In this document: positions 5,972 through 22,153 of the stretch, in pieces
How the letters are laid out: each line of letters begins with the position of its first letter
How positions within the stretch are numbered: the stretch's first letter is position 1
Origin: a virus
IMG/VR virus record: IMGVR_UViG_3300022935_000116
Coordinates: 1-24,299 of that record
Direction: 5' to 3' (one strand)
Length of the DNA stretch: 24,299 nt
Position numbers and translations under genes: made by a program
The notes under the pieces: generated by a model
Told to the model about the DNA's origin: nothing
The model's input: the letters and a program-made list of their open reading frames with translations, nothing else
Databases searched by the model: none

Positions 5972-5972
5972 C

Positions 5973-6179
5973 ATGCACTTAAGAGTAGAAAATCATGTAG
6001 GCCTTGTCAGAGATACGAATTCTAATGCAATTCTCAATACCTCTGACAAGGACTATGATGAGTATATAAAACTGAAGTCAAAGGCATTAAGTGAAAAAGA
6101 AAAAATTGCTAACCTCGAAAGTGAGGTTAGTGAATTGAAAGATATGGTAAAACTACTATTGGAAAAATTGGATAAATAG
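5973..6179 (+). CDS. Small protein with C-terminal coiled coil
   Basis: This is a 68-residue protein if read from the ATG at 5973. I prefer that start to the in-frame TTG at 5958, because the TTG lies inside the upstream gene and the ATG sits one base after its stop, which suits translational coupling. No clear ribosome site is visible. The N-terminal half contains NHVGLVRDTNSNAILNT, a motif I recall from short proteins in cyanophage structural regions. The C-terminal half, from about residue 30, is charged with leucine/isoleucine heptads (KIANLESEVSELKDMVKLLL) and should form a coiled coil. It may be a small trimerising virion part or an assembly factor; the function is unknown. Two inverted repeats lie inside the gene (see findings). 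A possible late promoter box overlaps its end. Confidence 0.75.
   Translation: MHLRVENHVGLVRDTNSNAILNTSDKDYDEYIKLKSKALSEKEKIANLESEVSELKDMVKLLLEKLDK
6002..6051 (+). other. Inverted repeat / possible RNA stem-loop
   Basis: CCTTGTCAGAG at 6002-6012 and its exact reverse complement CTCTGACAAGG at 6041-6051 form an 11-bp perfect arm pair. Inside the loop a second pair, GAATT (6017-6021) and AATTC (6029-6033), could add an inner stem. It lies in the first third of the small coiled-coil gene. There is no following T-run, so it is not an intrinsic terminator. It may have no role. Confidence 0.4.
6109..6130 (+). other. Hairpin inside the coiled-coil gene
   Basis: CTAACCTC (6109-6116) pairs exactly with GAGGTTAG (6123-6130) around a 6-base loop GAAAGT, and G-T pairs could extend the stem. 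No T-tract follows. A stem of this size is expected by chance in a window this long; it is listed because it sits 60 bases after the larger inverted repeat. Confidence 0.3.
6171..6178 (+). promoter_or_regulatory. Possible T4-type late promoter box
   Basis: GATAAATA differs from the T4 late consensus TATAAATA only at the first base. It overlaps the end of the coiled-coil gene and lies 23 bases before the ATG at 6202. With one mismatch in an AT-rich stretch it is a weak call. Confidence 0.35.
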
Positions 6180-6201
6180 TTAAAATCCGACCCTGTGGAT
6201 A

Positions 6202-6534
6202 ATGGCAGCAAGAGTTATTAATTTGGTGGTTGATCAGGGAGTAGATTTTGAAGCCACATTTACTATTCAGAATACTAATGGTTCCCCATTAAATCTTACG
6301 GGATATACTGCGGAATCCAAGATGAAAAAACATCCTGGGGCAACAAAATACTACCCGTTCGTAATTTCATTTCCCAATAGACTAGCGGGACAATGCAAAG
6401 TTTCGTTTGCATCGACGGCAACTGCTGCAATAGAGGGCGGTAGATATGTCTATGATTTGGTATTAGTTTCGCCCAATTCATATAAAACCAAACCAATTCA
6501 AGGCAATGTTCTCGTTGTACCTGGAGTTTCCTGA
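6202..6534 (+). CDS. Small Ig-like/BppU-N-like baseplate or tail protein
   Basis: A 110-residue protein. The order of motifs (VDQGVDFEATFTI, then GSPLNLTGYTAESKM, then GGRYVYDLVL, then a VVPGVS ending) matches the small all-beta domain common in phage baseplate and tail proteins, similar to the N-terminal domain of BppU-type upper baseplate proteins. In that family the domain is structural and helps dock fibres or receptor-binding proteins. The assignment rests on motif pattern only. No strong Shine-Dalgarno sequence precedes the ATG. The stop overlaps the next start (TGATG at 6532-6536), so the two genes are probably translationally coupled and their products may work together. There is no signal peptide or membrane segment. 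Confidence 0.8.
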   Translation: MAARVINLVVDQGVDFEATFTIQNTNGSPLNLTGYTAESKMKKHPGATKYYPFVISFPNRLAGQCKVSFASTATAAIEGGRYVYDLVLVSPNSYKTKPIQGNVLVVPGVS

Positions 6535-7211
6535 TGACAAATTATCTTGTACAGGTAAATCAACCAGGTGATTATAGAGTTGGAGTTGACTATGAAATTC
6601 CAACAAAATCAATTCAATATGGAAATATTGTTATTGATGATATTAGTGGTGGATTTGATGGGTCACAACTCAATTTTCCACTAAATGATGGTGGAAACCC
6701 CTATGCTCCAATCAACGATCAACAACTTATAGTTGTTAAGAATGGGGATGTACAAAACCCAGCAACAGATTTTACTATTTCTGGCGCCGAGATTATCTTT
6801 ACTCAGGCACCACTAGCTAATGATGATGTCTTTATCATCGCACTTGCTACTACTGCCGACTTAACTAGAACTATCAACTATGTGATAGATAGTGGCAGTT
6901 CTGATATGCTTTCTGGTAACAAAGGAAAGGTAACACTTGATGTTAGTGGTGTTATTGATTCGGTTACAGTTCTTTCAGATCAGACTGGAAACGTAGCTTT
7001 TGAGATCTCGAAGTCTAATTTTACCAACTATCCCACTTTTACCAGCATTACTGGTGGAAGCCGAATTATCCTATCTGGCGTTGACAAGTACTTTGACGAT
7101 GTACTAAATAATTGGGATAAAACAATTGTTGCGGGCGATATCCTCACATTTGATGTGTTTGGTGTCTCTGGGATTAGAAGATTCCTGATCTCTTTAAAAT
7201 TAAAATTATAA
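6534..7211 (+). CDS. Tail protein with fibre-type C-terminal beta domain
   Basis: A 225-residue protein whose ATG overlaps the preceding stop. Residues 40-105 (FDGSQLNFPLNDGG, then DQQLIVVKNGDVQNPATDF, then IIFTQAPLANDDVFIIALA) match a module common near the N-termini of marine phage tail-fibre-like proteins. Residues 120-225 (GSSDMLSGNKGKVTLDVSG, then VTVLSDQTGNVAFEI, then WDKTIVAGDILTFDV, then RRFLISLKLKL) match a beta-sandwich domain that I recall at the C-terminus of many phage receptor-binding or fibre proteins. The arrangement suggests a short fibre or a receptor-binding component at the baseplate. It is probably coupled to the small Ig-like gene before it. A late promoter box for the next gene overlaps its stop codon. 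The exact role is inference. Confidence 0.8.
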   Translation: MTNYLVQVNQPGDYRVGVDYEIPTKSIQYGNIVIDDISGGFDGSQLNFPLNDGGNPYAPINDQQLIVVKNGDVQNPATDFTISGAEIIFTQAPLANDDVFIIALATTADLTRTINYVIDSGSSDMLSGNKGKVTLDVSGVIDSVTVLSDQTGNVAFEISKSNFTNYPTFTSITGGSRIILSGVDKYFDDVLNNWDKTIVAGDILTFDVFGVSGIRRFLISLKLKL

Positions 7212-8346: not shown

Positions 8347-11300
8347 ATGGCGCCCAGAGTTTTTACTTACGACGAAACTCGAATCAATTACTTCGTTACC
8401 GACACCTTCGGAGACATTACGGTGTCGGAAACGTCGTCGGAGGACTTTGGCAATATTACAGACGCCCATATTATTGAAGAAGACGAATTAGGTTTTAACC
8501 CAAGTGATTACGGTCTAGTAGTCTGGGTAGGTGACATACTTCCATTTGGATCAATGGGTACGATCCAAAATACTTTGGAAGAAAGTGTCGCCTTCGTACC
8601 AGCAGTTCCTCAACAGCCCGTTCTCATACAGGGACAAGGAAAGGTATCGCGTTCTCAGGCACCTTGGCAGGGGTCTGGCACCCTCTTCGAGATTGGAGGA
8701 GGTCTGGAGAGACTGGTTGTACCAGACTTGGGTGCCGCAGGACCAGAACCAACCCTCAACGGGGAAGCGGCCACAAGACAGACATTTACAGAAGTCGGAT
8801 CTGGAAGTCTCACAGTCTCAGACGAGGCACAAACGGCGGAATTCAACATATATCCGTTCGTATCCAGAATTACACTCACCGTTTCAGGTGGAACTTCTCA
8901 AGAATATCCAGATGAGTATATTGAAGCTCATCCTAATGAGGAAGTTCTCAACGGTACTGGAGATGAGAGTAGAACCTACGATTACTCCATCTTCACAGGG
9001 ACATTCGAAGAACAAGACTTCGGATCAATTTCTGTCAAACAGGGCGCCAACTTCTCTGAAGTTAACACGACATTTGATAGTACGAATAGTTCTATCAACA
9101 GCTTCGCAGATGCCGATATTGTAGAGTCTGTTGATTACGGTCTACTTTCCGTAACCGAAATTACGGAGATTGTTACCAGAATTATCACTACCAGTGATTT
9201 CGCTGCGTACAATCCCACATACATTGGAACATTCCTTGCTCAGTCTGGGACAGGAATCGGTCAGGGCGGCGGATTTAATATTGGCGAACATATTAAATTC
9301 GGCAGCATCACCAATGGTAGATCCTTTGAGTGGGATGTAGATACTACCAACGCAACAAGCATTACCATCAGAGCAATCAGAGGCAATGATGCCAATGGTG
9401 GAGAAGATCCAGATACTTCAAGCGAAAGTTTAGTTCTTGATAGATGGAACGGGACTTCTTGGGTAAGAATTAACACTGTCATTGCATATAATGACAATTC
9501 TTTCGATACCTTAAGAGACATCACCATTCCTCTGGATGCTGTACACAGAGGTCAATATACTTACAGAATTTATCAGGCTGTATCCAGTGGACCAACCTGG
9601 GATCACTACGGCGTAACTCAGATCAGTTATGAAGTAGAACAGACTGTACCTATTCCTTCTGATGATTGGGGTGAGATTGTTGCCGATCAACGTTACGGCA
9701 AGATCACTACCAAGGCGACTTACTCTGGTGCTCTTACTAGGGCATTTGAGAGATTTGAACCAAGGTACATTGGAGAAACTGCAACACTATCTCTCAGAGA
9801 TGGTTTACTGCCAGACGAAGAAAGAAAAGTCTTCGCATTCGAAGGTTCTGGTACTATTACTGCAGTTGGTCAACTTGGTCTTGGTCAGGCACCTCAACAC
9901 ACCGTATTTGGCGAAGAAGGTCAATTTACATTCGGTGGATCTGGTGCAGAAGCCTTTGTACCACGAGGAATCGAGAGTTTCGGTCTCGTTCTTACTGGCG
10001 GCGCTGGTACAGAAAAAATCACTTTCCAAGGCGACGAAGAACGTGCAGAGTTCTTCTTCACTGGATTCTCCGAAGGTCTCAAACTTACACATTACCCACC
10101 ATCACAGACAGCAACACTTTCCATCAGTGGTGCTGCATCGGATATCGCCCAGATTTCCGATTACGTTGGATTCAGACTCTTCACCTTTACTGGTGGAATC
10201 ATCGAAGACTTCACTCCACATTGGAGATCTCCTCTGGAGAGAGATGGATTTGTCGAACCTCTTGATTTTGGATTCATTTCAGAAGCTCCAGCTCCCCCAC
10301 CAGAGGGATACGAGGATTGGGGTCTTGTACGTCTGGTCGCATTCCGTGCAGACGACTTTGGATACATTATCGATCTCTTCAGAAAAGTTCAAATCTACGG
10401 AGATGTTCAAGACTCCTTCAGTAGAGCAACTTATCAGGGTGTCGGTACATTCTTCATGTCTGAACCTGCCGTCGAGGCAGTTGTATTTGATTATGAGACT
10501 TCTGGTATTACTGGTATTGCCACTTATAAGGCAGGTATCAACATCTTTGGTGCCAACTGGTTCAGTCAGGCTCCACAACATACCGTATTTGGTCTCGAAG
10601 GCAAATTCACTATCGGTGGGGCTGGTGCAGAGTCCATTACTCCAACAACAGAGATTGGTTCTGGTTCTCTCTTTACCATTGGTGGCATTGCAGAGAGTTC
10701 TGCAGTTACGCCTCCTGCTGCAGGGGTCAAGTTCATCAGTGGTGCTGCAGATGTCAAACAATCTCCTGCACCATCCGCGTCTGGTCTCATCACTCTGCGT
10801 CAAGGTAGAGAAGAAGGTCAGACTTATCTTAGAATTATTGATGTTGGTGAAACCGCTGGTCTCTTTGGATTCGCTGGCGGAGCAACAGGCGAAAAACAGA
10901 CAGATTCTTACAACGAGTCTTCCATCTGGTATGGTCAAGAAAACGAAGACTTTGGTCTCCTCAGTGGCACACCAACCTTTGGATTCGATCTTGCACAGAT
11001 CCCATCTCTGCCAACGTTCGACGGAACATCCTCCGCCGAAAACTTCAGCACTACTAATGCAAGTATTGATTGGGGTGACATTGGTAATGGTGAAGGATCG
11101 AACACCATTGGTGGACCAGATTATGATCAATATCTGTATCCATCCAATACTGGTTTCGTCAATCAAAGTATTGACAATGGATATGAAGATTATGGTTGGG
11201 TCAACGAAGAAGATTCTCAACCTACCAGATTCCCACTTTCTGTTGGTGTTGCACTCTCCTTCACCGAGGGAGCACTTGTCACCAGATTCATTCCAAGTTT

Positions 11301-13323
11301 CCCTGGTTCTGGTTCAGCTCTCTTTACGATTTCCAGCGCGCTCGAATCGATTACTGTATTCGAACGTGCAGATGTTCCTCTTCTGCCACTTTCTGGTTCT
11401 GCAGAAGAAGCCTACTCTGCACAAACACCAGAGAGAACCGTCACTATTCTCATCGATGGTCAAAGTACAGAGAGTATCACGATCACCGCCAACCAATTCG
11501 TTGGTGTTGGTATTGGAACTCTGTTCTCCTTCGGAGAACTTGTCGAGAGAGTCAGATTCGAAGAAGTTGGTATTGGATCTGCTACCTTTACTGGTACTGG
11601 AGTCGAGAAGTTCATCTCGAATCCACCAGAAGGCACTCAACTCTTTACACCATACGGATCTTACTCCGATCTCAGCGCAACCTTCTCTGAGGTTGCAACC
11701 AAGGCAACTCTCCGACTCTCTGGAGAACTGGTTCACCCATTCATCGATTACACTCCACACTACGGTATCGAAAGAAATATCGGTATCGAGACTGGATTCA
11801 CATTATTCGCTGGTGGAGCGGGTGGAGAATATGGAGATCCTGGTATTGTTACTACCAGATTTATTCCAAAATATCCAGCGTCTGGTGTTATTGGAATCAG
11901 TTCCAGAGCTATTTCCAGAACCAACGCTCCTATCATCACAGATGGTACGATCTACATTCTGGGTATTCATACCGCAGCTCAGGGTGTCAGTTCTGGCAGA
12001 GAAACTGGTGCTGGAGAAAGATTTATTCCAGCGTCTATCGATGCGGGCCCTGGTCTCTTCCTCTTCAAAGGAGATGCACCAAACAGACCAATTCAGGTCT
12101 ATGGTTATTATGGAGACGACAAGGATCCTGGTACATCTGGTCAGATTACCATCTCCACAGAAACGACACCAACTCTTTACAGGGAAATTACAACTGCAGC
12201 AGTTGGAATTGGTATTGGGACATTCTCTGGTTATATCACCGAGAGAAAATCCAAGGCCTACTCTGGATCTGGTTCTCTGTTCAAAACAGGTGGATCAGCG
12301 GAATCTATTCCAGTTCGTCCAGTCACATCTGGTACGATCTTTGTTTCGGGTGCATACGGTGCAGAGTACGCATACTCCGCACAAACCCCAGAAAATGTCA
12401 TCACTCTCACTCTCAGTGGAGTCGCTGACAAGGCAGTTCTCCTCACAACTGACTTTGGTGGCACTATCTTTGCATCTGGTGTTGCTGGAGAAAGTGCAAC
12501 ATTTGACGAGATTGGATCTGGATCTCTCTTCGCGATTGGTGGAGGAGCGGAATCCGTTACTCCTGTTGTTTCTACATTCACTGTTCTTGTCAATGTTGGT
12601 GGTTCTGCAGACAGCAGAGAAATTGCTGTTTACGGTTACTACGGGGACGACAGAGATCCTGGTACTTCTGGAACAATTTCGATCGTTGGAGAACTTACTC
12701 ATCCAAACATCGACTTTACTCCAGCTGTCACTGGTGTTGGTCTGTTCAAAATCGATGGAACTGCAATTCCCAAGTTCCAACTTACTGCAGATGTTCTGGG
12801 TGGAAAGGCAACAATCTCTGGATCTGCAGAAGTATCCTTCACCTCGGGCGCTGGCGAGCAAACAATGCTCTTCAGAGTTCTTGGAAATGCAGATACTGCA
12901 CTCAATCAAGTCTTTGGATACTACGGAGACGACAAGGATCCTGGTACTTCTGGAACTCTCACGATTTCTGGCATTGGCGAAACGAGAGAAGTTCAAGTCT
13001 ATGGATACTATGGAGACGACAGAGATCCAGGCACATCTGGAAAAATTACCCTCTCTTCGACAACTCTGGTATTCCCATTTGTCGATTACACTCCATCTCC
13101 AGACGGTTCTGGTCTGTTCATCATTGGTGGTTCTGCCGACAAACGTCGCGTATTCCCACCTGTCGATGGTCGCGGCGTTCTGTTCAAAATTGGAACAGCG
13201 CAAGAAGCTTATACAAGAGCGACATATGTTGGAATTGGCAATGTCAGATACTCCTCCACTACTATTGCCTCTACACAACTCGTACAATTCGAAGAGGGTC
13301 GAGTATACGTTATTATCATTTAA
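8347..13323 (+). CDS. Giant repetitive beta-rich structural protein (putative fibre/adhesin)
   Basis: A 1658-residue protein starting at the ATG at 8347, with a modest GAAGG site ending 7 bases upstream. It has no signal peptide, membrane segment or enzyme motif. Three repeat classes are visible. First, a short D-[FWY]-G motif occurs at residues 33, 54, 224, 263, 440, 640, 657, 670, 868, 908 and 948, often within acidic stretches. Second, a G-x-G-x-LF-x-x-G-G-x-A-E unit of roughly 15 or more degenerate copies runs through most of the protein. Third, [YF]GYYGDD[KR]DPGTSG occurs at 1252, 1429, 1523 and 1552. Paired longer repeats include PQHTVFG (516 and 743) and AYSAQTP (1022 and 1342). The pattern suggests a long beta-solenoid or string of small beta domains, so a fibre shaft or adhesin is likely. 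I recall similar repetitive proteins in cyanomyoviruses. A long open frame in another phase overlaps it and is rejected. Confidence 0.85.
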   Translation: MAPRVFTYDETRINYFVTDTFGDITVSETSSEDFGNITDAHIIEEDELGFNPSDYGLVVWVGDILPFGSMGTIQNTLEESVAFVPAVPQQPVLIQGQGKVSRSQAPWQGSGTLFEIGGGLERLVVPDLGAAGPEPTLNGEAATRQTFTEVGSGSLTVSDEAQTAEFNIYPFVSRITLTVSGGTSQEYPDEYIEAHPNEEVLNGTGDESRTYDYSIFTGTFEEQDFGSISVKQGANFSEVNTTFDSTNSSINSFADADIVESVDYGLLSVTEITEIVTRIITTSDFAAYNPTYIGTFLAQSGTGIGQGGGFNIGEHIKFGSITNGRSFEWDVDTTNATSITIRAIRGNDANGGEDPDTSSESLVLDRWNGTSWVRINTVIAYNDNSFDTLRDITIPLDAVHRGQYTYRIYQAVSSGPTWDHYGVTQISYEVEQTVPIPSDDWGEIVADQRYGKITTKATYSGALTRAFERFEPRYIGETATLSLRDGLLPDEERKVFAFEGSGTITAVGQLGLGQAPQHTVFGEEGQFTFGGSGAEAFVPRGIESFGLVLTGGAGTEKITFQGDEERAEFFFTGFSEGLKLTHYPPSQTATLSISGAASDIAQISDYVGFRLFTFTGGIIEDFTPHWRSPLERDGFVEPLDFGFISEAPAPPPEGYEDWGLVRLVAFRADDFGYIIDLFRKVQIYGDVQDSFSRATYQGVGTFFMSEPAVEAVVFDYETSGITGIATYKAGINIFGANWFSQAPQHTVFGLEGKFTIGGAGAESITPTTEIGSGSLFTIGGIAESSAVTPPAAGVKFISGAADVKQSPAPSASGLITLRQGREEGQTYLRIIDVGETAGLFGFAGGATGEKQTDSYNESSIWYGQENEDFGLLSGTPTFGFDLAQIPSLPTFDGTSSAENFSTTNASIDWGDIGNGEGSNTIGGPDYDQYLYPSNTGFVNQSIDNGYEDYGWVNEEDSQPTRFPLSVGVALSFTEGALVTRFIPSFPGSGSALFTISSALESITVFERADVPLLPLSGSAEEAYSAQTPERTVTILIDGQSTESITITANQFVGVGIGTLFSFGELVERVRFEEVGIGSATFTGTGVEKFISNPPEGTQLFTPYGSYSDLSATFSEVATKATLRLSGELVHPFIDYTPHYGIERNIGIETGFTLFAGGAGGEYGDPGIVTTRFIPKYPASGVIGISSRAISRTNAPIITDGTIYILGIHTAAQGVSSGRETGAGERFIPASIDAGPGLFLFKGDAPNRPIQVYGYYGDDKDPGTSGQITISTETTPTLYREITTAAVGIGIGTFSGYITERKSKAYSGSGSLFKTGGSAESIPVRPVTSGTIFVSGAYGAEYAYSAQTPENVITLTLSGVADKAVLLTTDFGGTIFASGVAGESATFDEIGSGSLFAIGGGAESVTPVVSTFTVLVNVGGSADSREIAVYGYYGDDRDPGTSGTISIVGELTHPNIDFTPAVTGVGLFKIDGTAIPKFQLTADVLGGKATISGSAEVSFTSGAGEQTMLFRVLGNADTALNQVFGYYGDDKDPGTSGTLTISGIGETREVQVYGYYGDDRDPGTSGKITLSSTTLVFPFVDYTPSPDGSGLFIIGGSADKRRVFPPVDGRGVLFKIGTAQEAYTRATYVGIGNVRYSSTTIASTQLVQFEEGRVYVIII
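12100..13041 (+). repeat. Four copies of a GYYGDD repeat
   Basis: The 14-residue unit [YF]GYYGDD[KR]DPGTSG is encoded at 12100-12141, 12631-12672, 12913-12954 and 13000-13041. The copies also agree closely at the DNA level, for example sharing GATCC and GGTAC or a near match. Spacing is 531, 282 and 87 bases, so the last two are almost tandem. An aspartate-rich loop of this kind could bind calcium, but that is inference. Confidence 0.85.
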
Positions 13324-13341
13324 TGCAATATTTTTAATAAG

Positions 13342-13349
13342 TATAAATA
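13342..13349 (+). promoter_or_regulatory. T4-type late promoter box
   Basis: A perfect TATAAATA lies 36 bases before the ATG at 13386, in the 62-base gap after the 1658-residue gene. No terminator hairpin is seen in this gap, so read-through from upstream is also possible. It probably drives the three-gene set from 13386 to 18697. Confidence 0.65.
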
Positions 13350-13385
13350 AAACAGAAGCAAAGTCCGTTTCATGAGATTTGAATC

Positions 13386-13844
13386 ATGACAAAGCAGGTA
13401 CAACTAAGAAAAGGCACTACTGCGGAGCACTTTAACTTCACAGGTGCCCTTGCAGAAGTAACTGTTGATACAGACAAGAATGTTGCTGTTGTACACGACG
13501 GTGTTACTCCAGGTGGTTTTGAATTGGCGAAGTCCAGATGGACGTTCGTTGATGGCCCATACAGTATGACAACTAACCAAAAGTATACTGTCGATTCACA
13601 AAACACTCCTGGTGGATATTCTCTCTCCATGCCCGAACCCCGCGCAGTCGGTGACTGGGTATGGGTAGAAGATTTTACTAATTTTTGGAGTATTAATCCA
13701 GTTTCTATTACTTCGAATTATTCATTTGAAAATGGCCATTTGGTTAGGGAGAGTTCTCCTCTGATTCTGGATGTGTCAGGTGCATCTGTAAGTTTAATTT
13801 GGACTGGATCTCTTTGGAAAATCTTCAACAATAGAGGAAGTTAA
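13386..13844 (+). CDS. Small tail protein: Mtd-type N-terminus plus fibre-tip-like domain
   Basis: A 152-residue protein. Residues 4-40 (QVQLRKGTTAEHFNFTGAL, then EVTVDTDKNVAVVHDG) match the N-terminal domain named after the major tropism determinant (Mtd) of the Bordetella phage BPP-1, a small beta domain common at the start of phage tail-fibre proteins. Residues 76-148 have the pattern L-x-M-P-x-P-x-x-x-GD, then INPVSI, then GASVSLIWTGSLWKIF. This closely parallels the C-terminus of the 1475-residue protein two genes downstream (residues 1405-1475). It could be a mini-fibre made only of an attachment and a tip domain. There is no Mtd-like variable C-type lectin domain, and no reverse transcriptase is seen, so no diversity-generating system is implied here. 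The ribosome site is weak. The next gene starts 3 bases after the stop. Confidence 0.8.
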   Translation: MTKQVQLRKGTTAEHFNFTGALAEVTVDTDKNVAVVHDGVTPGGFELAKSRWTFVDGPYSMTTNQKYTVDSQNTPGGYSLSMPEPRAVGDWVWVEDFTNFWSINPVSITSNYSFENGHLVRESSPLILDVSGASVSLIWTGSLWKIFNNRGS

Positions 13845-14269: not shown

Positions 14270-17200
14270 ATGGCTGAGTTTAGACTTGGAAGAGTAAAAT
14301 TCAACTGGACTGGCGATTGGCAGCCATCCAAATCCTACTTGATTGATGATATCGTCAAGTTCGGTGGTAACTCCTACGTTGCCGTCGTTAACCACACATC
14401 CACTGCGAGCACTGCGAATTTCTATTCGTCGGATCTTAGCAATTGGAACGTTCACTTAGAAGGTATCAATTCCAGAGGGAATTGGATGTCTGGTGAATAC
14501 TATCGTGTTAACGATGTAGTAAGGTTCGGAAACATCCAGTATAGAGTTACTACTGCCCACACATCCGAAGGAACATTCGTTGACCTCACTAAGGTCACTG
14601 AATATGTTGCTGGATTCAATGCAGAAGGCGAGTGGAACATCGATACACCATATCAAACTGGTGACGTTGTTAACTACAATGGTTCTTCTTACGTTGCCCT
14701 TACGACATCTCTTGCAGGATTTTCTCCTCCACAGAACGTTGCTATCGGTACAGACACTGAAGGCAAGACATGGCAAATTCTTGCAGATGGTATCGCTGGA
14801 GCCGCAAATACCTACTCTGAGGGAACATACTTCAGAGGACAGCTTGTACAGTACGGTGGTGACATCTTCCGCCACAAGTTAGGTATTACGACTAACATTG
14901 CACCTCTTTCTACTGGTAACACACAAGGTGTTGGTATTGGTGCATCTGTTTGGGATCTTCTGGTCAAAGGATTTAATTTCGTTGGCAATTTCTCTACAAC
15001 GTTTGCGTACCATCCTGGTCACGTTGTAAGATACGGTTCGAACTCCTATGTTTCTGTTGGTAATTCCTTTACTAACGTTATTCCTACTGCTGGTCTCGGA
15101 ACATATTGGGAAACTCTTGCTGCTGGAGACAGCTCTGCTGTTCTGGTAAGTAAGGGTGATATTCTCACTTATAACTCTGGTCCTTTCAGAATTGGTATTG
15201 GTTCTACTGGTTACGCTCTTGCAGTTGGTGGAAACGGACTTCCTGGTTACGAAATCGTTGGTGCTCAAACCCGAGTTTACTATTGCGACTCCGAGTCTGG
15301 ACACGATACAAACAACGGTCTTGCACCTAACCTGGCATTTAAGACAATTAAGAGGGCTTGTGCCGCTGCACGTCCCCAAACACCTATTACAGGATTTAAT
15401 TACACTGCCGCAACTGGTGTTGCAACCATTACTGCTCCTGGTCACGGACTGCAAAACACTGGTACGTTCGTTCAGTTAGAAGGCGTAGAATTCGAATGTC
15501 TCTCTGGTGGTAATGTCTTCACCGTACTGGGTATGCAGTACAACAAGACAGTTGGTCTCGCAACCATCACCGCTATCGGACTGGGTAATGCACCCGAAGT
15601 CGGTATCGGCACACTTGTTAGAATTAGAAATCTTCAAGTTCAGTACACTGGTGATGCAAGATTTGAGCACCAATTCCAAAGTGCTTTAAGTGGCGCAGTT
15701 ATCACTGGTGGTGACTATAATCACACATTTATTGCTGCAAACCCTGGTGCAATCACCTGTGTCCAAGGATCTCTCGCAGGTTCGACATTCACCCCAACAA
15801 ACGCACAATATACCCCAACTTCGGGCGAAATCATCTTTACTGTTGGTAATCACGGTCTTTCGATCGCTGATACGATCAGCATCGATACCAACTCATTGAC
15901 CTTCACTTGTGCGATGGATGGCAATAGTGCCAATAAGACATATCCTCGTGCAACTGACCCTGCTGCTGGTGCAACTCTCGCAGTTACTGCGATTACCCAA
16001 AATACCTTCACGGTAAACGTTGGTGCATCTCCACTCGTTGCTTATGACGTATCGGATGCAACTTATAATCACCTGACTGGTGCTATGACATTGGATATTG
16101 GTGCTCACCAACTTCCTGCCAACACCTCCATCAAACTGGCAAACAACAGTTTGACCTTCCGTTGTGCAATGGACGGTTATCTGACCGACCACTCCTATCC
16201 TCGTGCAACGGATCCTTACTACGATACTGCGATCAATATCACATCGGTTACTCCAACCACAATTACTGTTAACATCGGTGTTGCATCCAGCAACACAACC
16301 ATCACAGGTAACTTCCCAGCTGTCCACACTCCTGGTCAGTTCCAGTTCCCTGTTCAAGGTATCCCCGATGCTAACTCGGTCATTCTGAACGTTGGTCAAT
16401 CTGCAACCGATTACCTCTACGTTCAGGCTGGTACTGCATTCGTTGGTCTGACAACTACTGTTTATCCCGATAAGGCTTCTAAGTCCTACTTCGAAGTTCT
16501 TGAAGTTCCCGATGTTGATACTTTCAGAGTTAACATTGGTGTTTCCACAATCAACCACACCTATGTACAGGGTGGTCTGCTGACTGACCTGACGCCTGCT
16601 ATTCTGAGACTCTCTGCTTCTCAGTTCTATGAGCAACTCCCAATTGTTGTTCCACCATTCACTTCGATTGTTGGACATACTCTGAGAGGTACTCAGGTTC
16701 TTCCCGCCTCTGGTTTCTCTGATGATGGCATCACGCCAAACAACAGATCGACCATGTTCAAACTGTCTGACGCAACTACCGTACAGGCACTGGCGTTCAA
16801 GGGAATGGAAGGTTTCCATTATGATCCTAACGCTCCTCTGGAGATGGACAACTCCAATATCAGAACTGGTGTTGGTACAACTGCCGCAGGTATCTTCTTC
16901 GCACTGAACCCCAACTCCCCAATTAACAACAAGTCGCCTTACGTTAAGGATTGTACGACTTTCTCGGATCCCGCAACTGAAAGTGGCAGATTCGGTGGTG
17001 GTGGTGTTGGCGTCTTCATCGACGGTGGTGTCCACAGCGAAGGTGCAAAATCGATGGTCTTCGACGCCTTCACGCAGGTTAACTCTGACGGTGCTGGATT
17101 CCTCCTTGATAAGAGTGCAATCGCTGAGATCGTCTCCTGCTTCACCTACTACGCTAAGTGGGGTTACTACTCTGGTGGTGGTGCGAGAATTCGTGCCGTT

Positions 17201-18697
17201 GGTGGTAACAACTCTTATGGTGATTACGGTGTCATCTCTTCTGGTTTCGCATCTGACGAAGTTGCAAGATCTGCAAGACTGTTCGGTGACTTGATGACCA
17301 TTCTCGGAACAACAGTTTCGGGTACAGTCGCAATTGGTAACACCCTTACTGGTCAAGCCTCTGGCGCACAGGGATGGTTGATCAATGACCAGAAGGCCGC
17401 TGATAAGTATTACTTCAAGTATCATCCTGGTTATGGTGCTACCGCAACTGCTGAAAACGGCAACGTTGCAATCGGTACTTCTCCATTCGTAGATGGTGAA
17501 CTTGTATATGCTTACAGTGACACCTCGGGCGCTGGTTATGCTGGTTCCTTCAACGTTGCAGCTGCAACATCCTCTGTTTCTGGTCAGAAGGGTACAATCC
17601 TTGAGATTGATGGATTTGATTCCGTTCCTCTCGTAGGTGACGCAATCGGATTCACCACCAGCTTTGGTGAAGATACCCTGTTCTACATTGTCAACACAGT
17701 TACTAACGTCGCGGCCGCAGTAACTTACACCGACACCGTTGGAATGGCACACACCTACTATAACCGCGCTACTCTGACAATCTCGCCAGAGAAGGGTAAG
17801 GCAACCCCTGACACCCGTAACGTCACGGGCGCAGGTTCCACCATCAGTGTTAGAACAAGATTCTCTCAGGTCCGCCTGACGGGTCACGACTTCCTGAGTG
17901 TTGGTACTGGTAACAAGGTTGAGACCAATTATCCCGATGTTGACGAAACTCAAATCATTCAGGGTAATGAGACCAATACATTCGGTCCTGGTAAGGTGTT
18001 CTTCGTCTCCACTGACCAAGGTGGTAACTTCAGAGTTGGTCAATTCTTCTCCGTTGACCAGTTGACTGGTCGTGCAACCCTGGACGCCTCCGCGTTCAAC
18101 CTGTCTGGTCTGACAGAACTGAGACTGGGTGCGATTGGTGGTCAGGTCGGTGAGGCAATTAACGAATTCTCCTCTGATGAATTCATGTCTGGTGACTCCA
18201 ACAGCGCTTGCCCAACTGAATTCGCAACTCGCGGATTCCTGCTTCGCGGTAAGATGGGCGTTGGTGCGATGGTTCCCCCAGTTGGTACTACCGCCCAAAG
18301 ACCTTCAGGCGTTGATGAGTCCTTCGTCACTGGTGCTCTGAGATTCAACACCACTCTGGGTGCTCTGGAATACTACGATGGAACCGCATGGGTCCAGCCT
18401 GGTAAACTCACCTACGAGACAGTTTCTGGAAACAACAACGCACTTGCCTCGCATGTCTACTTCGTCCGCACGGACACTGGTCAAGCTCAAATGACTCTGC
18501 CCGCAAGCCCAAATCTTGGTGATACGATCAGATTCTACGACGCAGCCAAGACTTTCGACACCAACGCACTGGTTGTCCAAAGAAACGGCAAACTGATTCA
18601 GGGTGACGCTGCAGACCTCACGGTCAACGTTGAGGGTGCATCGTTCGAACTCACCTTCTCGGGTGACACATACGGTTGGAGACTGTTCTCCATCTGA
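14270..18697 (+). CDS. Large tail-fibre-like protein with carbohydrate-binding-like modules, beta-helix and tip domain
   Basis: A 1475-residue protein with GGAGA (14261-14265) just before the ATG. Residues 13-263 hold five modules of the pattern W/F-x-n-Y-x-x-x-D/G-x-V-x-[FY]-x-x-x-x-[YF] (about 13-40, 70-94, 120-144, 183-203, 238-263). These resemble small carbohydrate-binding (CBM5/12-like) domains. Residues 335-367 (RVYYCDSESGHDTNNGLAP, then FKTIKRACAAA) are typical of the start of a right-handed parallel beta-helix, and glycine-rich sequence around 790-1010 fits its rungs. Between lie inserted beta modules, including two copies with SLTFxCAMDG (542 and 627). The C-terminal 71 residues match the small tip-like domain of the 152-residue gene. 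It is probably a long tail fibre or host-binding tailspike. No catalytic glycosidase residues could be identified by eye. C-ending codons suggest high expression. Confidence 0.87.
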   Translation: MAEFRLGRVKFNWTGDWQPSKSYLIDDIVKFGGNSYVAVVNHTSTASTANFYSSDLSNWNVHLEGINSRGNWMSGEYYRVNDVVRFGNIQYRVTTAHTSEGTFVDLTKVTEYVAGFNAEGEWNIDTPYQTGDVVNYNGSSYVALTTSLAGFSPPQNVAIGTDTEGKTWQILADGIAGAANTYSEGTYFRGQLVQYGGDIFRHKLGITTNIAPLSTGNTQGVGIGASVWDLLVKGFNFVGNFSTTFAYHPGHVVRYGSNSYVSVGNSFTNVIPTAGLGTYWETLAAGDSSAVLVSKGDILTYNSGPFRIGIGSTGYALAVGGNGLPGYEIVGAQTRVYYCDSESGHDTNNGLAPNLAFKTIKRACAAARPQTPITGFNYTAATGVATITAPGHGLQNTGTFVQLEGVEFECLSGGNVFTVLGMQYNKTVGLATITAIGLGNAPEVGIGTLVRIRNLQVQYTGDARFEHQFQSALSGAVITGGDYNHTFIAANPGAITCVQGSLAGSTFTPTNAQYTPTSGEIIFTVGNHGLSIADTISIDTNSLTFTCAMDGNSANKTYPRATDPAAGATLAVTAITQNTFTVNVGASPLVAYDVSDATYNHLTGAMTLDIGAHQLPANTSIKLANNSLTFRCAMDGYLTDHSYPRATDPYYDTAINITSVTPTTITVNIGVASSNTTITGNFPAVHTPGQFQFPVQGIPDANSVILNVGQSATDYLYVQAGTAFVGLTTTVYPDKASKSYFEVLEVPDVDTFRVNIGVSTINHTYVQGGLLTDLTPAILRLSASQFYEQLPIVVPPFTSIVGHTLRGTQVLPASGFSDDGITPNNRSTMFKLSDATTVQALAFKGMEGFHYDPNAPLEMDNSNIRTGVGTTAAGIFFALNPNSPINNKSPYVKDCTTFSDPATESGRFGGGGVGVFIDGGVHSEGAKSMVFDAFTQVNSDGAGFLLDKSAIAEIVSCFTYYAKWGYYSGGGARIRAVGGNNSYGDYGVISSGFASDEVARSARLFGDLMTILGTTVSGTVAIGNTLTGQASGAQGWLINDQKAADKYYFKYHPGYGATATAENGNVAIGTSPFVDGELVYAYSDTSGAGYAGSFNVAAATSSVSGQKGTILEIDGFDSVPLVGDAIGFTTSFGEDTLFYIVNTVTNVAAAVTYTDTVGMAHTYYNRATLTISPEKGKATPDTRNVTGAGSTISVRTRFSQVRLTGHDFLSVGTGNKVETNYPDVDETQIIQGNETNTFGPGKVFFVSTDQGGNFRVGQFFSVDQLTGRATLDASAFNLSGLTELRLGAIGGQVGEAINEFSSDEFMSGDSNSACPTEFATRGFLLRGKMGVGAMVPPVGTTAQRPSGVDESFVTGALRFNTTLGALEYYDGTAWVQPGKLTYETVSGNNNALASHVYFVRTDTGQAQMTLPASPNLGDTIRFYDAAKTFDTNALVVQRNGKLIQGDAADLTVNVEGASFELTFSGDTYGWRLFSI
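15848..16180 (+). repeat. Tandem internal module pair in the fibre protein
   Basis: Two beta modules each hold an H-[GQ]-L segment (H528 and H613), then SLTF-x-CAMDG (542-551 and 627-636), then YPRATDP. The repeat distance is 85 residues. The copies are clear in protein but only partly conserved in DNA, so the duplication is not recent. Confidence 0.75.
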
Positions 18698-18704
18698 TTC
18701 TGGG

Positions 18705-18734
18705 GAGGGGGATTCTTCCCCCTCTTTCTTTTCT
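18705..18734 (+). terminator. Intrinsic terminator
   Basis: GAGGGGGA (18705-18712) pairs exactly with TCCCCCTC (18717-18724) around the loop TTCT, followed by a pyrimidine-rich TTTCTTTTCT tract. It begins 8 bases after the stop of the 1475-residue fibre gene and separates it from the three adhesin-like genes. Confidence 0.85.
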
Positions 18735-18740
18735 GTCTAT

Positions 18741-18748
18741 TATATAAA
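18741..18748 (+). promoter_or_regulatory. Possible variant late promoter
   Basis: TATATAAA is found 20 bases before the ATG at 18769, directly after the terminator. A promoter is expected here because the upstream transcript should end, but the box departs from TATAAATA. Confidence 0.3.
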
Positions 18749-18768
18749 CCACCCAATGTAGAGATAAA

Positions 18769-19551
18769 ATGGCCACTTACGGAAGTTACAAAAAAATTGT
18801 TGCTGCTCAGATCCCAAATCAATCTATTCCAGATAGTGCTTTTGCACCTGGATCTGGTCCCAAATACGGCGTATTGTGGATCAGTGGAGGGTTAGGAGGT
18901 ATTTCTGGAGGATGTTGTTGTCTTTGGACAGTTCCTACTGGAGTTAAGAGGGTCACCTTCGATCTTTGGGGCGCTGGGGGAAATGGTAGTGGATTCTGTT
19001 CTTGGGACCGTTGCCATCACTATTTTGGTGCTGGTGGCGGAATGTATGCCACTAGAACAATTGATGTTCAAGCTGGGTGGCAGTATTCGATTTGTGCTGG
19101 TGGCGTTTATCCATGTTGTTCTTATGAGTGTGTTGGATGTCAGGGATGCGCTTCTTATGTTAATGGTTGCAATCTAAGTAGTTTTTGTGCAACTGGTGGT
19201 TCTAGAGGTTGTGCAAACACTGCTTGGGATACGATGTGTACTTCCGAGTGGCAGTGTTGCGTAAGCCCAGGTCAAAACAACTCTCAATTTGCTATGGGTA
19301 ATATGGCTCCTGCAGGTACAGGACCATTTGCATGTCACTGTTACAGACACACCTGGTGTTCTGGAACTGCACCATTCCTATCCTTCGGAACGATTGGTGG
19401 TCACGTTGCAGAATGTTGGGTACGTTGTGCATGTTGGACCGTTCCTTATGCAATGGGAGGCGGTAATGGAATGACCACATATTGTGGCAACTGGGATAAT
19501 GGCACTGGCCAAGTCGGTGGAACAGGTGTCGTAAAGATCACTTACGTCTAA
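18769..19551 (+). CDS. Cys- and Gly-rich adhesin-like tail protein, copy 1 of 3
   Basis: A 260-residue protein with 24 cysteines. The core opens GGCCCLWTVPTGVKRVTFDL followed by WGAGGNGSG, the pattern of the glycine-rich domain common at phage fibre tips (VPxGVxxxxxxxWGAGG). Then come CSWDRCHH, a second glycine cluster, and PCCSYECVGCQGC at residues 115-127. The conserved part breaks off around ANTAW (149-153), a divergent segment follows, and a conserved block resumes at C216 (CWVRCACWTVPY to VKITYV). The role as receptor-binding tip is inferred from the glycine-rich domain and from position after a long fibre gene, as T-even gp38-type adhesins are placed. The first 45 residues differ most from the other two copies, so it may attach differently. 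There is no signal peptide. The ribosome site is weak. Confidence 0.8.
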   Translation: MATYGSYKKIVAAQIPNQSIPDSAFAPGSGPKYGVLWISGGLGGISGGCCCLWTVPTGVKRVTFDLWGAGGNGSGFCSWDRCHHYFGAGGGMYATRTIDVQAGWQYSICAGGVYPCCSYECVGCQGCASYVNGCNLSSFCATGGSRGCANTAWDTMCTSEWQCCVSPGQNNSQFAMGNMAPAGTGPFACHCYRHTWCSGTAPFLSFGTIGGHVAECWVRCACWTVPYAMGGGNGMTTYCGNWDNGTGQVGGTGVVKITYV

Positions 19552-19570
19552 TCAGGGGAACTTTATACAA

Positions 19571-20368
19571 ATGGCAAACTATTCAGATTACAAAAGAGTA
19601 ACTACGGACCAAATTGATGACGGATTAGTCACCGATGAAATGATTGTTCCTGGTGCTAGAAAAAATTATGGAATCAAGTGGGTCCATGGATCTCCCAACT
19701 CTGCAGCTGGTGGATGTTGTTGCCTCTGGACAGTTCCCTCTGGAGTTTCAAAACTTTTCATTGAAATGTGGGGTGCTGGTGGCAACGGACATGGTTCTTG
19801 TGCTTGGGACCGTTGTCAACACTTTAAAGGCGCAGGTGGTGGATCATACAACGCTAAAATTATTAACACCGCCGCAGGTTGTCAATATACGATCTGTGCT
19901 GCTGGTGTTTATCCATGTTGTTCTTTCGATTGTACTGGATGCGAAGGATGTTCCTCCTACGTTAACGGTTACAACCTAAGTGGATTCTGTGCCGTTGGTG
20001 GTTCTAGAGGTTGTGCAAACACCAGTTGGACCGAAACTTGTTACTCTGCATATGACTGCTGTTTGCAGAGAGGTTTCAACAACGGTGACTTCGGTGGTAT
20101 CTCTCACTCTGGTAGATTTGGTTCTGTACAGTGGTGGTTCGGTGTTGGATTCTGTCACTGTCATCACCAACAAACGAGGCCTTCTAGAGCTCCTCTTGTT
20201 GGAACCGACGTTGTTTATTCAATTAACTTCTGTTGGATCCGTCATGGATGTTGGACCGTTCCTTACGGTTCTGGTGCTCAAGGTGCTCAGTCTAGTTACT
20301 GCGGCAACTGGGATAATGGATATGGTAATACAGGCGGTAATGGAATCGTCAAAATTACATATTTCTGA
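19571..20368 (+). CDS. Cys- and Gly-rich adhesin-like tail protein, copy 2 of 3
   Basis: A 265-residue protein with 22 cysteines, preceded by AGGGGAA (19554-19560), 10 bases before the ATG. It starts MANYSDYKRVTTDQIDDGLV, close to copy 3, and has the same order: CCCLWTVPSGV, WGAGGNGHGS, CAWDRCQH, PCCSFDCTGCEGC from residue 115, GGSRGCANTSW, a divergent middle, and a conserved C-terminal block from C221 ending VKITYF. The divergent middle is five residues longer than in copies 1 and 3 and includes SVQWWFGVGFCHCHHQQ, a Cys/His cluster that could bind metal. The gene follows copy 1 by 19 bases without a terminator and is probably co-transcribed. It is probably an alternative or additional receptor-binding tip. 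Function is inferred from domain type and place. Confidence 0.8.
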   Translation: MANYSDYKRVTTDQIDDGLVTDEMIVPGARKNYGIKWVHGSPNSAAGGCCCLWTVPSGVSKLFIEMWGAGGNGHGSCAWDRCQHFKGAGGGSYNAKIINTAAGCQYTICAAGVYPCCSFDCTGCEGCSSYVNGYNLSGFCAVGGSRGCANTSWTETCYSAYDCCLQRGFNNGDFGGISHSGRFGSVQWWFGVGFCHCHHQQTRPSRAPLVGTDVVYSINFCWIRHGCWTVPYGSGAQGAQSSYCGNWDNGYGNTGGNGIVKITYF

Positions 20369-20374
20369 TAAATA
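20367..20374 (+). promoter_or_regulatory. Possible T4-type late promoter box
   Basis: GATAAATA, one mismatch from TATAAATA, overlaps the stop codon of copy 2 and lies 23 bases before the ATG of copy 3. The same variant at the same distance precedes the gene at 6202, which slightly raises its credit. Confidence 0.35.
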
Positions 20375-20397
20375 TTTAACGTAGGAATCTTTCACCC

Positions 20398-21180
20398 ATG
20401 GCAAACTATACCGACTATAAAAAAGTTGATGGTGCTTCACTTCCAGCAGGAGTGATCACAGATGCAAAGATCAACGCAAATGCATTGAAAACCTGGAATA
20501 TTCAGTGGGTTTATGGAAATCCAAATAGTGTAACTGGTGGATGTTGCTGCCTCTGGACAGTCCCAACTGGTGTTGCTAGAGTGACTTTTGAGATTTGGGG
20601 TTCTGGAGGAAACGGACACGGTTCTTGTTCCTGGGACCGTTGTCACCACTATAGGGGTGCCGGCGGTGGTTACTACGCAAGTAAAACGATTAGTACAGTT
20701 CCTGGGTGTCAATATACAATCTGTGCTGCTGGTGTTTATCCATGTTGTTCTTTTGACTGTGTTGGTTGTTATGGATGTTCTTCATACATTAATGGTTACA
20801 ACCTTTCCAACTTCTGTACCCCAGGTGGCCACAGAGGTGAGGCAAACACTGCTTGGAACGAAGCTTGTAACTCATATTTTACCTGTTGTAAAGGTCCCAA
20901 TGATAATGGTGCCGACTTCCAAATGGGTTCTCACGCAGGAGAATTTGCGTCTCACGCATCGGAATGTCATTGTCAGTGTGTAGGATCTCAACCAACTCCC
21001 GCTCCATTCATTGGCGGTGAAGTCCAATATCAACTCCATGACTGCTGGATCCGTCATGGTTGTTGGACTGTTCCTTATGCACATGGTGCAATTGGAGCAA
21101 TGACTTCTCAGTGTAGTGGATGGGATAATGGTTATGGAAATACTGGTGGTCCTGGACTTGTTAAGATTACTTACGTCTAA
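20398..21180 (+). CDS. Cys- and Gly-rich adhesin-like tail protein, copy 3 of 3
   Basis: A 260-residue protein with 22 cysteines; AGGAA (20383-20387) lies 10 bases before the ATG. It has the same layout as copies 1 and 2: MANYTDYKKVDGASLPAGV, then CCCLWTVPTGV, WGSGGNGHGS, CSWDRCHH, PCCSFDCVGCYGC from residue 115, GGHRGEANTAW, a divergent segment with ASECHCQC, and the conserved block from C216 ending VKITYV. In the otherwise fixed GGSRGC motif the cysteine is replaced by glutamate, so that residue is not needed in every copy. It is the last of the trio and is followed by a strong terminator. It is probably a receptor-binding tip protein; this is inference. Confidence 0.8.
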   Translation: MANYTDYKKVDGASLPAGVITDAKINANALKTWNIQWVYGNPNSVTGGCCCLWTVPTGVARVTFEIWGSGGNGHGSCSWDRCHHYRGAGGGYYASKTISTVPGCQYTICAAGVYPCCSFDCVGCYGCSSYINGYNLSNFCTPGGHRGEANTAWNEACNSYFTCCKGPNDNGADFQMGSHAGEFASHASECHCQCVGSQPTPAPFIGGEVQYQLHDCWIRHGCWTVPYAHGAIGAMTSQCSGWDNGYGNTGGPGLVKITYV

Positions 21181-21202
21181 AAACATAAAAAAATAAGTTA
21201 AT

Positions 21203-21228
21203 AGGAACGGGAAACCGTTCCTTTTTTT
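21203..21228 (+). terminator. Intrinsic terminator
   Basis: GGAACGG (21204-21210) pairs exactly with CCGTTCC (21215-21221), extendable by an A-T pair, around a GAAA tetraloop, followed by seven T residues (21222-21228). It is a textbook rho-independent terminator closing the adhesin trio. Confidence 0.92.
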
Positions 21229-21239
21229 GTGTAAAAAAT

Positions 21240-21247
21240 TATAAATA
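21240..21247 (+). promoter_or_regulatory. T4-type late promoter box
   Basis: A perfect TATAAATA lies 36 bases before the ATG at 21284 and just after the terminator. The distance to the start codon equals that of the box at 13342. It probably drives the chaperone-like gene. Confidence 0.65.
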
Positions 21248-21283
21248 ATACCGAGAGATGTTTACTCGAACAAAGAAACCGTT

Positions 21284-22153
21284 ATGGCAACCGAAATTAT
21301 TAGAGTAGAATTTGATCTGCCACTCCCCGATGAGTACATGGTAGATCATAATAGAACACAGAATAAGTCCCGTAAGTATACTTACCATGGACCCGACAAG
21401 ATTTATCTGCAGATTGGCGCAGATGGATATGAAAAGTATGGTCCACTGACCGAAGATGACAAAGCCGATGGCCGTCCAATGCCTCGTGACGTTGTTGAGT
21501 TCTTCGAAGTGGATTGCACTGTATATCCATTAATTTGTCAACTTAGAGGACCAATTGTTAATGAGTCCCAGGAATTCTCTGGTCCAGTCCTTCCAGATAA
21601 CAAAACTCCAAATCCACAGACAGGTGAAGCAGCTGGTGCAGTTGTTCCCCACCCCCAATCCCCAGTGATTGCTGGTTTTGAACAGTATAAGTATAGTTTA
21701 CCCATTCTTCCAAAATTTGTTTGGGATCCCCTCACAGTAAGAGTTGTAGATGGAGTTCCAACAGCAAGAATGTTCACTGTTAATGAAGTAATTCTCGGTG
21801 AAGCAAATGATGATTGGTTTGGTGTAGAAGATATTAGAGAATCAAGAAACTCTATGTTGGCTTCCAGCGATGGTCAGATTTCTTCTGATATGCCTGCTGC
21901 CATGATTTCTGCATGGACAGATTACAGACAAAACCTCAGAGATTGGCCTTCTCTTGTTGAGACTCACGGTATTCCTCCAGCAGTTGCTGCTAAGATGCAA
22001 CCACTTTCTCCTGATGCGGTTAGATCTAGCTATTCCTCTATGACTGAGGCACAGATTGCTCGCAAGGAAGAGAAAGAGGCTCGTGCAATTGCTCGTGGAC
22101 TTGAGCAAATGGAACGTGCAAAACCAACTGAAGATCAGAATCCTGGTCTCTGA
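21284..22153 (+). CDS. Probable tail-fibre assembly chaperone
   Basis: A 289-residue protein. Residues 207-222 (MISAWTDYRQNLRDWP) match the helical W-x-x-YRQ-x-LRDxP signature of the tail-fibre assembly chaperones of tailed phages. Those proteins help fibre subunits fold and trimerise and are usually encoded right after the fibre or adhesin gene, as here. The first 150 residues are not part of that short family; they look like a separate domain (YTYHGPDKIYLQIGADGYEKYG), with a Pro-rich stretch near 105-125. The last 40 residues are charged and probably helical (EAQIARKEEKEARAIARGLE). No clear ribosome site is seen before the ATG. It has its own late box and its own terminator, so it can be made independently of its likely clients. 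Chaperone role: family knowledge plus position. Confidence 0.75.
   Translation: MATEIIRVEFDLPLPDEYMVDHNRTQNKSRKYTYHGPDKIYLQIGADGYEKYGPLTEDDKADGRPMPRDVVEFFEVDCTVYPLICQLRGPIVNESQEFSGPVLPDNKTPNPQTGEAAGAVVPHPQSPVIAGFEQYKYSLPILPKFVWDPLTVRVVDGVPTARMFTVNEVILGEANDDWFGVEDIRESRNSMLASSDGQISSDMPAAMISAWTDYRQNLRDWPSLVETHGIPPAVAAKMQPLSPDAVRSSYSSMTEAQIARKEEKEARAIARGLEQMERAKPTEDQNPGL

Follow-up and report, generated by a model that had tools for sequence, protein, structure and literature searches.

Three tandem genes of a T4-like cyanophage very probably encode the receptor-touching tip of its tail fiber, as judged from a predicted structure, and we lean slightly toward the view that their products are three specialized, non-interchangeable subunits of one hetero-oligomeric tip, probably of 1:1:1 composition, carried on a trimeric fiber. 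The genes lie in a 24.3-kb virus fragment (24,299 nucleotides, analyzed in full and called the window here) that covers the tail-fiber region and has the gene order of Synechococcus phages S-SSM7 and Sf-FS3 (Table 1). Homology, fold, positional orthology, purifying selection and the recurrence of the three-copy state were computed; what we infer is that the tip docks on the fiber, that its subunits stand at 1:1:1, that it binds receptors and what its cysteines do.

Table 1. Features in and around the three tip genes (window coordinates).
Feature	Position	Strand	Details
Long tail fiber protein	14270..18697	+	1475 aa; Pfam CBM_5_12 modules, PHROG 9851 tail fiber
Terminal domain of long fiber	last ~95 residues	+	probable tip docking site
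Terminator-like hairpin 5' of trio	18702..18727	+	same in L005, L006, L008, L009, L011; similar in others
Tip paralog 1	18769..19551	+	260 aa, 24 Cys; PHROG 4205 E 4.5e-38
Segments of paralog 1			N-terminus 18769-18909, core 18910-19227, paralog-specific middle 19228-19413, C block 19414-19548
Tip paralog 2	19571..20368	+	265 aa, 22 Cys; PHROG 4205 E 1.3e-48
Segments of paralog 2			core 19712-20029, middle 20030-20230, C block 20231-20365
Late-promoter-like GATAAATA	20367..20374	+	overlaps paralog 2 stop codon
Tip paralog 3	20398..21180	+	260 aa, 22 Cys; PHROG 4205 E 2.9e-52
Segments of paralog 3			core 20539-20856, middle 20857-21042, C block 21043-21177
Terminator-like hairpin 3' of trio	21203..21222	+	similar ones in most near loci
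Exact T4-type late promoter motif TATAAATA	21240..21247	+	between trio and chaperone gene
Probable tail fiber assembly chaperone	21284..22153	+	289 aa; Pfam Phage_tail_APC E 9.6e-7

The three ORFs lie on the same strand and are, as the initial annotation had recognized, tandem paralogs. Their pairwise identity is 50-60% (copy 2 versus copy 3, 60%, E 5e-107; copy 2 versus copy 1, 50%, E 5e-84), and their homology is far above the level of chance. All three proteins match the profile of PHROG 4205 (E 4.5e-38 to 2.9e-52), which, like PHROG 35878 (the type that includes P-SSM2 protein 304), is a family of unknown function that comes without a structure or a copy-number pattern. Pfam Gly_rich_2 also matches the trio, but below threshold, and a search of phage DNA at the near-identity level gave zero matches.

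The paralogs agree and differ by segment. The common core, common C-terminal block and divergent middle described earlier were confirmed: identity between the window paralogs is 0.68-0.74 over residues 48-153 and 0.60-0.76 over the last 45 residues, versus 0.21-0.33 over residues 154-215. The description of both ends as fixed applies to the C-terminal block but not to the N-terminus, where residues 1-47 diverge nearly as much as the middle (0.28-0.47). Similarly, the middle was said to differ almost completely; paralog identity there is indeed low, but cysteines 157, 163, 164, 190 and 192 (copy 3 numbering) are invariant in 55 of 55 near relatives, so the middles are not unrelated. Their divergence is one between paralogs; among orthologs the same stretch is conserved.

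The abundance of cysteine is the most striking feature of the trio and went unmentioned in the initial annotation. Cysteine makes up 8.3-9.2% of each protein (22-24 residues) and ≤1.9% of every other protein in the window, and 19 cysteines are invariant across the 55 near relatives. These residues might form cross-links, by disulfide or metal. Co-occurrence of variable cysteines yielded no clean disulfide pairs; the leading candidates (45/244 and 79/242) are confounded by relatedness. The disulfide network of Agrobacterium phage Milano resembles the trio in the enrichment of cysteine in a phage tail, but the proteins differ and cysteine accounts for 2.1% of Milano structural proteins, compared with 8.3-9.2% here (PMC10811340). 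Cysteine-rich cyanophage tips were not described in the open-access literature that we searched. In Pelagibacter phage Mosig (L070, 6887-8437), the glycine-rich protein encoded 3' of a homologous fiber has only 4 cysteines in 516 residues, and cysteine richness may therefore be tied to cyanobacterial hosts.

To obtain a fold, we used an AF2 model of copy 3 built from 107 relatives (pLDDT 76, pTM 0.74), extending its evidence to copies 1 and 2 through their 50-60% identity. Residues 32-260 of the model matched the Pam3 fiber (7ypx_A) with a VIA Z of 16.7 (rmsd 3.1, 190 residues aligned; Foldseek E 2.7e-5), followed by the Bxb1 tail tip (Z 11.7) and the ligand-binding region of ALK/LTK (Z 8-10). 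The model contains a TNF-like beta-sandwich running on into glycine-rich loops. This likeness emerged from fold comparison only, since querying PDB sequences with the tip profile gave zero matches. Matches in BFVD include a Syn9 protein annotated as Gp38 (E 2.6e-6), and S16 gp38, which has a polyglycine-lattice fold, is absent among the PDB matches listed. Because the copy 3 model has the fold of the Pam3 fiber, its identity as a tail tip is well supported, and the proposal of a glycine-rich receptor-binding tip is strengthened by both the Pam3 and the Syn9 matches. Most strands of the model lie in the core and the C-terminus, and the paralog-specific middle therefore belongs to the glycine-rich part; residues 1-30, where a fiber of the Pam3 type has a helical docking domain, are modeled as short helices of low confidence (pLDDT 47-66).

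Proteins of this fold could also serve as virion decoration or accessory proteins that make no contact with a receptor. Such a role would sit easily with the literature, in which we found no virion proteomics for trio proteins (including those of S-SSM7, S-CAM and Sf-FS3), the published T4-like cyanophage proteomes (S-SM1, S-PM2 and Syn9; PMC3037559) being from phages where the trio was not found. However, the best fold match is a receptor-binding fiber, and the trio lies between the long fiber and the tail fiber chaperone in nearly all loci; we regard decoration as improbable.

The combination of a TNF-like and a glycine-rich part in a fiber is already known from Pam3, a myophage of a cyanobacterium, whose gp24 is a homotrimer (PMC9608196). 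Gp24, with which the trio shares its fold, is likewise encoded beside a chaperone gene (gp25; PDB 7ypx, 7yfw; PMC9608196). The two systems differ in that gp24 is one gene whose homotrimer forms the whole fiber, whereas the window has three paralogs after a long fiber gene; moreover, aligned identity between gp24 and copy 3 is 15%, and the Pam3 paper makes no mention of cysteine. The T-even gp38 adhesins (S16, T2, PP01) resemble the trio as glycine-rich tip proteins encoded 3' of a long fiber gene and in their proposed receptor contact. The variable segments of gp38 differ between related phages, a hypervariability that the trio lacks, its middle being 70-74% identical in window-clade orthologs. 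Gp38 is encoded by a single gene and caps the gp37 trimer (PMC9608196).

To follow the evolution of the copies, we compared 18 related phages and built a tree of 55 copies. Relatives of the window type carry the trio in identical order everywhere except on contigs cut inside it. Copies from different phages cluster chiefly according to their position (4 label changes on the tree versus 25.9 in shuffles), the exceptions being deep branches that place copy 3 with copy 1 or with copy 2. The initial annotation had held that even variation along the genes would speak against its reading; variation is roughly even among close orthologs of the window clade (core 81-87%, middle 70-74%, N-terminus 67-75% identity) and uneven between paralogs. 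The dN/dS ratio is 0.18-0.24 in the middle and 0.08-0.25 across all regions, which denotes purifying selection; this ratio and the identity of the middle among orthologs led us to reject hypervariability or diversifying selection there. The three copies also evolve in parallel, with distance correlations of 0.94-0.95 over 14 lineages.

These patterns weigh on the suggestion that the genes form a cassette of interchangeable or phase-variable tips by which the phage would change or broaden its host range. Tandem paralogs with divergent middles are what such a cassette would look like, and traces of gene conversion are present: synonymous codons are shared more by paralogs of the same phage than by those of different phages, for example in the C block of copies 1 and 3 (0.60 within a phage versus 0.49; 0 of 2000 permutations as high). 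The converted tracts are short (exact ones up to 81 nt), and such conversion partly explains the more uniform ends. Yet the copies keep their positions, diverge in parallel and are under purifying selection in the middle, no inverted repeats occur in window positions 18500-21400, and near relatives have no extra or partial cassettes. Switching is thus not upheld, and we consider a cassette of this kind very unlikely; co-display of the three proteins may occur and forms part of the explanation that we favor.

How many tip genes a phage carries was assessed in 305 loci, with members counted where flanks were intact. Among the resulting 126 distinct loci, which come mainly from metagenomic contigs and within one class are not independent samples, 72 have three tips, 38 two, 14 one and two six. 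Every near locus uncut by a contig end has exactly three. Isolates range from three tips (S-CAM1 and S-CAM3) through two (P-SSM2) to the single cysteine-poor one of Mosig. In both six-gene loci (L124, 1678-7870; L126, 1763-7861) the order is a-b-c-a'-b'-c', followed by one chaperone gene; a groups with a' and c with c' in both phages, and b with b' in L126, from which it follows that the triplet was duplicated as a unit. Elsewhere, the third tip of L046 (8182-9028) seems to be split by a frameshift into two overlapping pieces, which may be a sequencing error, and the contigs that bear the trios of L064 and L065 are assigned to Actinomycetota and Flavobacteriales MAGs but are probably phage contigs binned by mistake.

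Trios fall into separate groups in the tree (support 99 for near, 92 for far and 99 for L138/L210/L228), although two L198 rows intrude into the near group, placed with a sub-clade. Most groups contain internal position groups; the S-CAM-type trio holds together less tightly. Constraining a near copy to form a clade with a far copy was rejected in each of the nine possible combinations (p-AU ≤0.0011), and with it a single ancient triplication shared by near and far trios, although early homogenization can mimic this result; the two therefore arose separately or were homogenized early. Trios originated separately in two or more lineages, probably four or more, and were kept at three there. Because members of one class do not count as independent samples, the three-copy state has evolved independently only a few times, about four to six.

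A relative of the window's chaperone gene lies beside the tips in 123 of the 126 distinct loci; a fold search with a model of the chaperone returned no match, only helical-bundle noise, and a PDB sequence search returned zero matches. Tips that begin with a MAxYxxYK-type N-terminus follow a fiber end with the same terminal domain in 13/13 one-gene loci and 17/17 three-gene loci. Of the 32 loci with such tips, 29 have the domain on a long ORF and 3 on a short one. For tip classes with other N-termini (far, S-CAM, MAKN) the domain is on a short separate ORF in 54/54 loci, and the two-copy P-SSM2 class is without it. The type of tip N-terminus thus tracks the architecture of the preceding fiber end. 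Since single-gene and three-gene MAxYxxYK tips share the terminal domain, one kind of fiber socket serves both, as might be expected had a homotrimer been replaced by a heterotrimer.

Other genes in these regions deserve mention. Prolyl-4-hydroxylase/2OG-oxygenase-like genes lie between the chaperone gene and glycosyltransferase/carbamoyltransferase genes in L066, L067 and L061, and it is possible that they modify the tips. In the window, the protein encoded at 13386-13841 has a Major tropism determinant N-terminal domain (Pfam E 1.6e-12), and no reverse transcriptase is present among the window's named genes. A 1237-aa open frame (9662-13375), which overlaps in a different frame with the gene at 8347-13323, probably results from biased codon use.

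We propose that each subunit would combine three parts: a short N-terminal docking segment, the TNF-like beta-sandwich, and a glycine-rich domain that is also rich in cysteine and has the paralog-specific middle in its outer loops. One copy of each paralog would fill the trimer, which would be seated at the terminus of the trimeric long fiber encoded directly upstream, with the downstream Phage_tail_APC protein acting as folding chaperone for the subunits; one tip would then present three different receptor-facing surfaces at once. Fixed positional roles, the bias toward three copies (72/126), duplication of the triplet, separate trios and the shared socket all support a tip that works as one unit. 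Because three copies are kept so consistently in related phages, one mixed three-part tip is probable, rather than spare tips.

Alternatively, the paralogs could be three separate homotrimeric (or monomeric) adhesins that stand side by side on different fibers and bind three receptors. Their middles, specific to the paralog and conserved among orthologs in putative receptor-facing loops, would suit this arrangement, as would the homotrimer of Pam3 gp24 and the L210 locus (3246-6959; listed with L138 and L228), where a small chaperone-like gene stands after every tip (arrangement TATATA). Nevertheless, only one long fiber gene lies directly 5' of the trio in the window and in isolates, one type of N-terminus is common to all three proteins, and separate tips would explain neither why the number three recurs nor why a whole triplet was duplicated together. 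We judge separate adhesins unlikely, but clearly less so than decoration or switching.

Several observations temper the heterotrimer. With two copies only in 38 loci, three are not obligatory across the family, and an A2B trimer would fit; the individual chaperones of L210 also fit three separate homotrimers; and old homogenization can mimic independent triplication, gene conversion between copies having been detected. Expression may also be unequal. The reported cyanophage late promoter NATAAATA (PMC2984593) occurs in the 150 nt that follow the trio in 19/23 near loci, at the junction of genes 2 and 3, where it overlaps the gene 2 stop codon, in 12/23 and at that of genes 1 and 2 in none, although the motif is short enough for chance alone to give single matches. 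Gene 3 may therefore receive extra expression in some phages, which a late-promoter-like motif 5' of it would permit.

The closest precedent for the heterotrimer is the tail of virophage DSLV2, whose three consecutively encoded tail proteins assemble as a heterotrimer at 1:1:1 (PMC12724248). Its genes are conserved as a set, as in the trio, and its tail proteins are related to those of Synechococcus phages, but a gp37-like fold is reported and DSLV2 is a virophage, not a tailed phage, so that the comparison is one of working principle (PMC12724248). Cysteine-rich three-paralog tips in tailed phages were not described in the open-access literature searched.

Together, the results lead us to suggest, tentatively, that T4-like marine cyanophages repeatedly exchanged a homotrimeric tip for an obligate heterotrimer of three cysteine-cross-linked TNF-like/glycine-rich paralogs, inherited as a unit. 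A likely function and structure can now be given to two functionally uncharacterized PHROG families that occur widely in ocean virus data, and a cysteine content of 8-9% in a probable virion surface protein is extreme and calls for a chemical explanation. If the obligate heterotrimer is real, a single tip would present three distinct receptor surfaces in a fixed geometry, the recurrence of three-paralog tips would reveal a way in which phages break the symmetry of the tip, and this could help explain why the host range of marine cyanophages has been difficult to pin on one gene.
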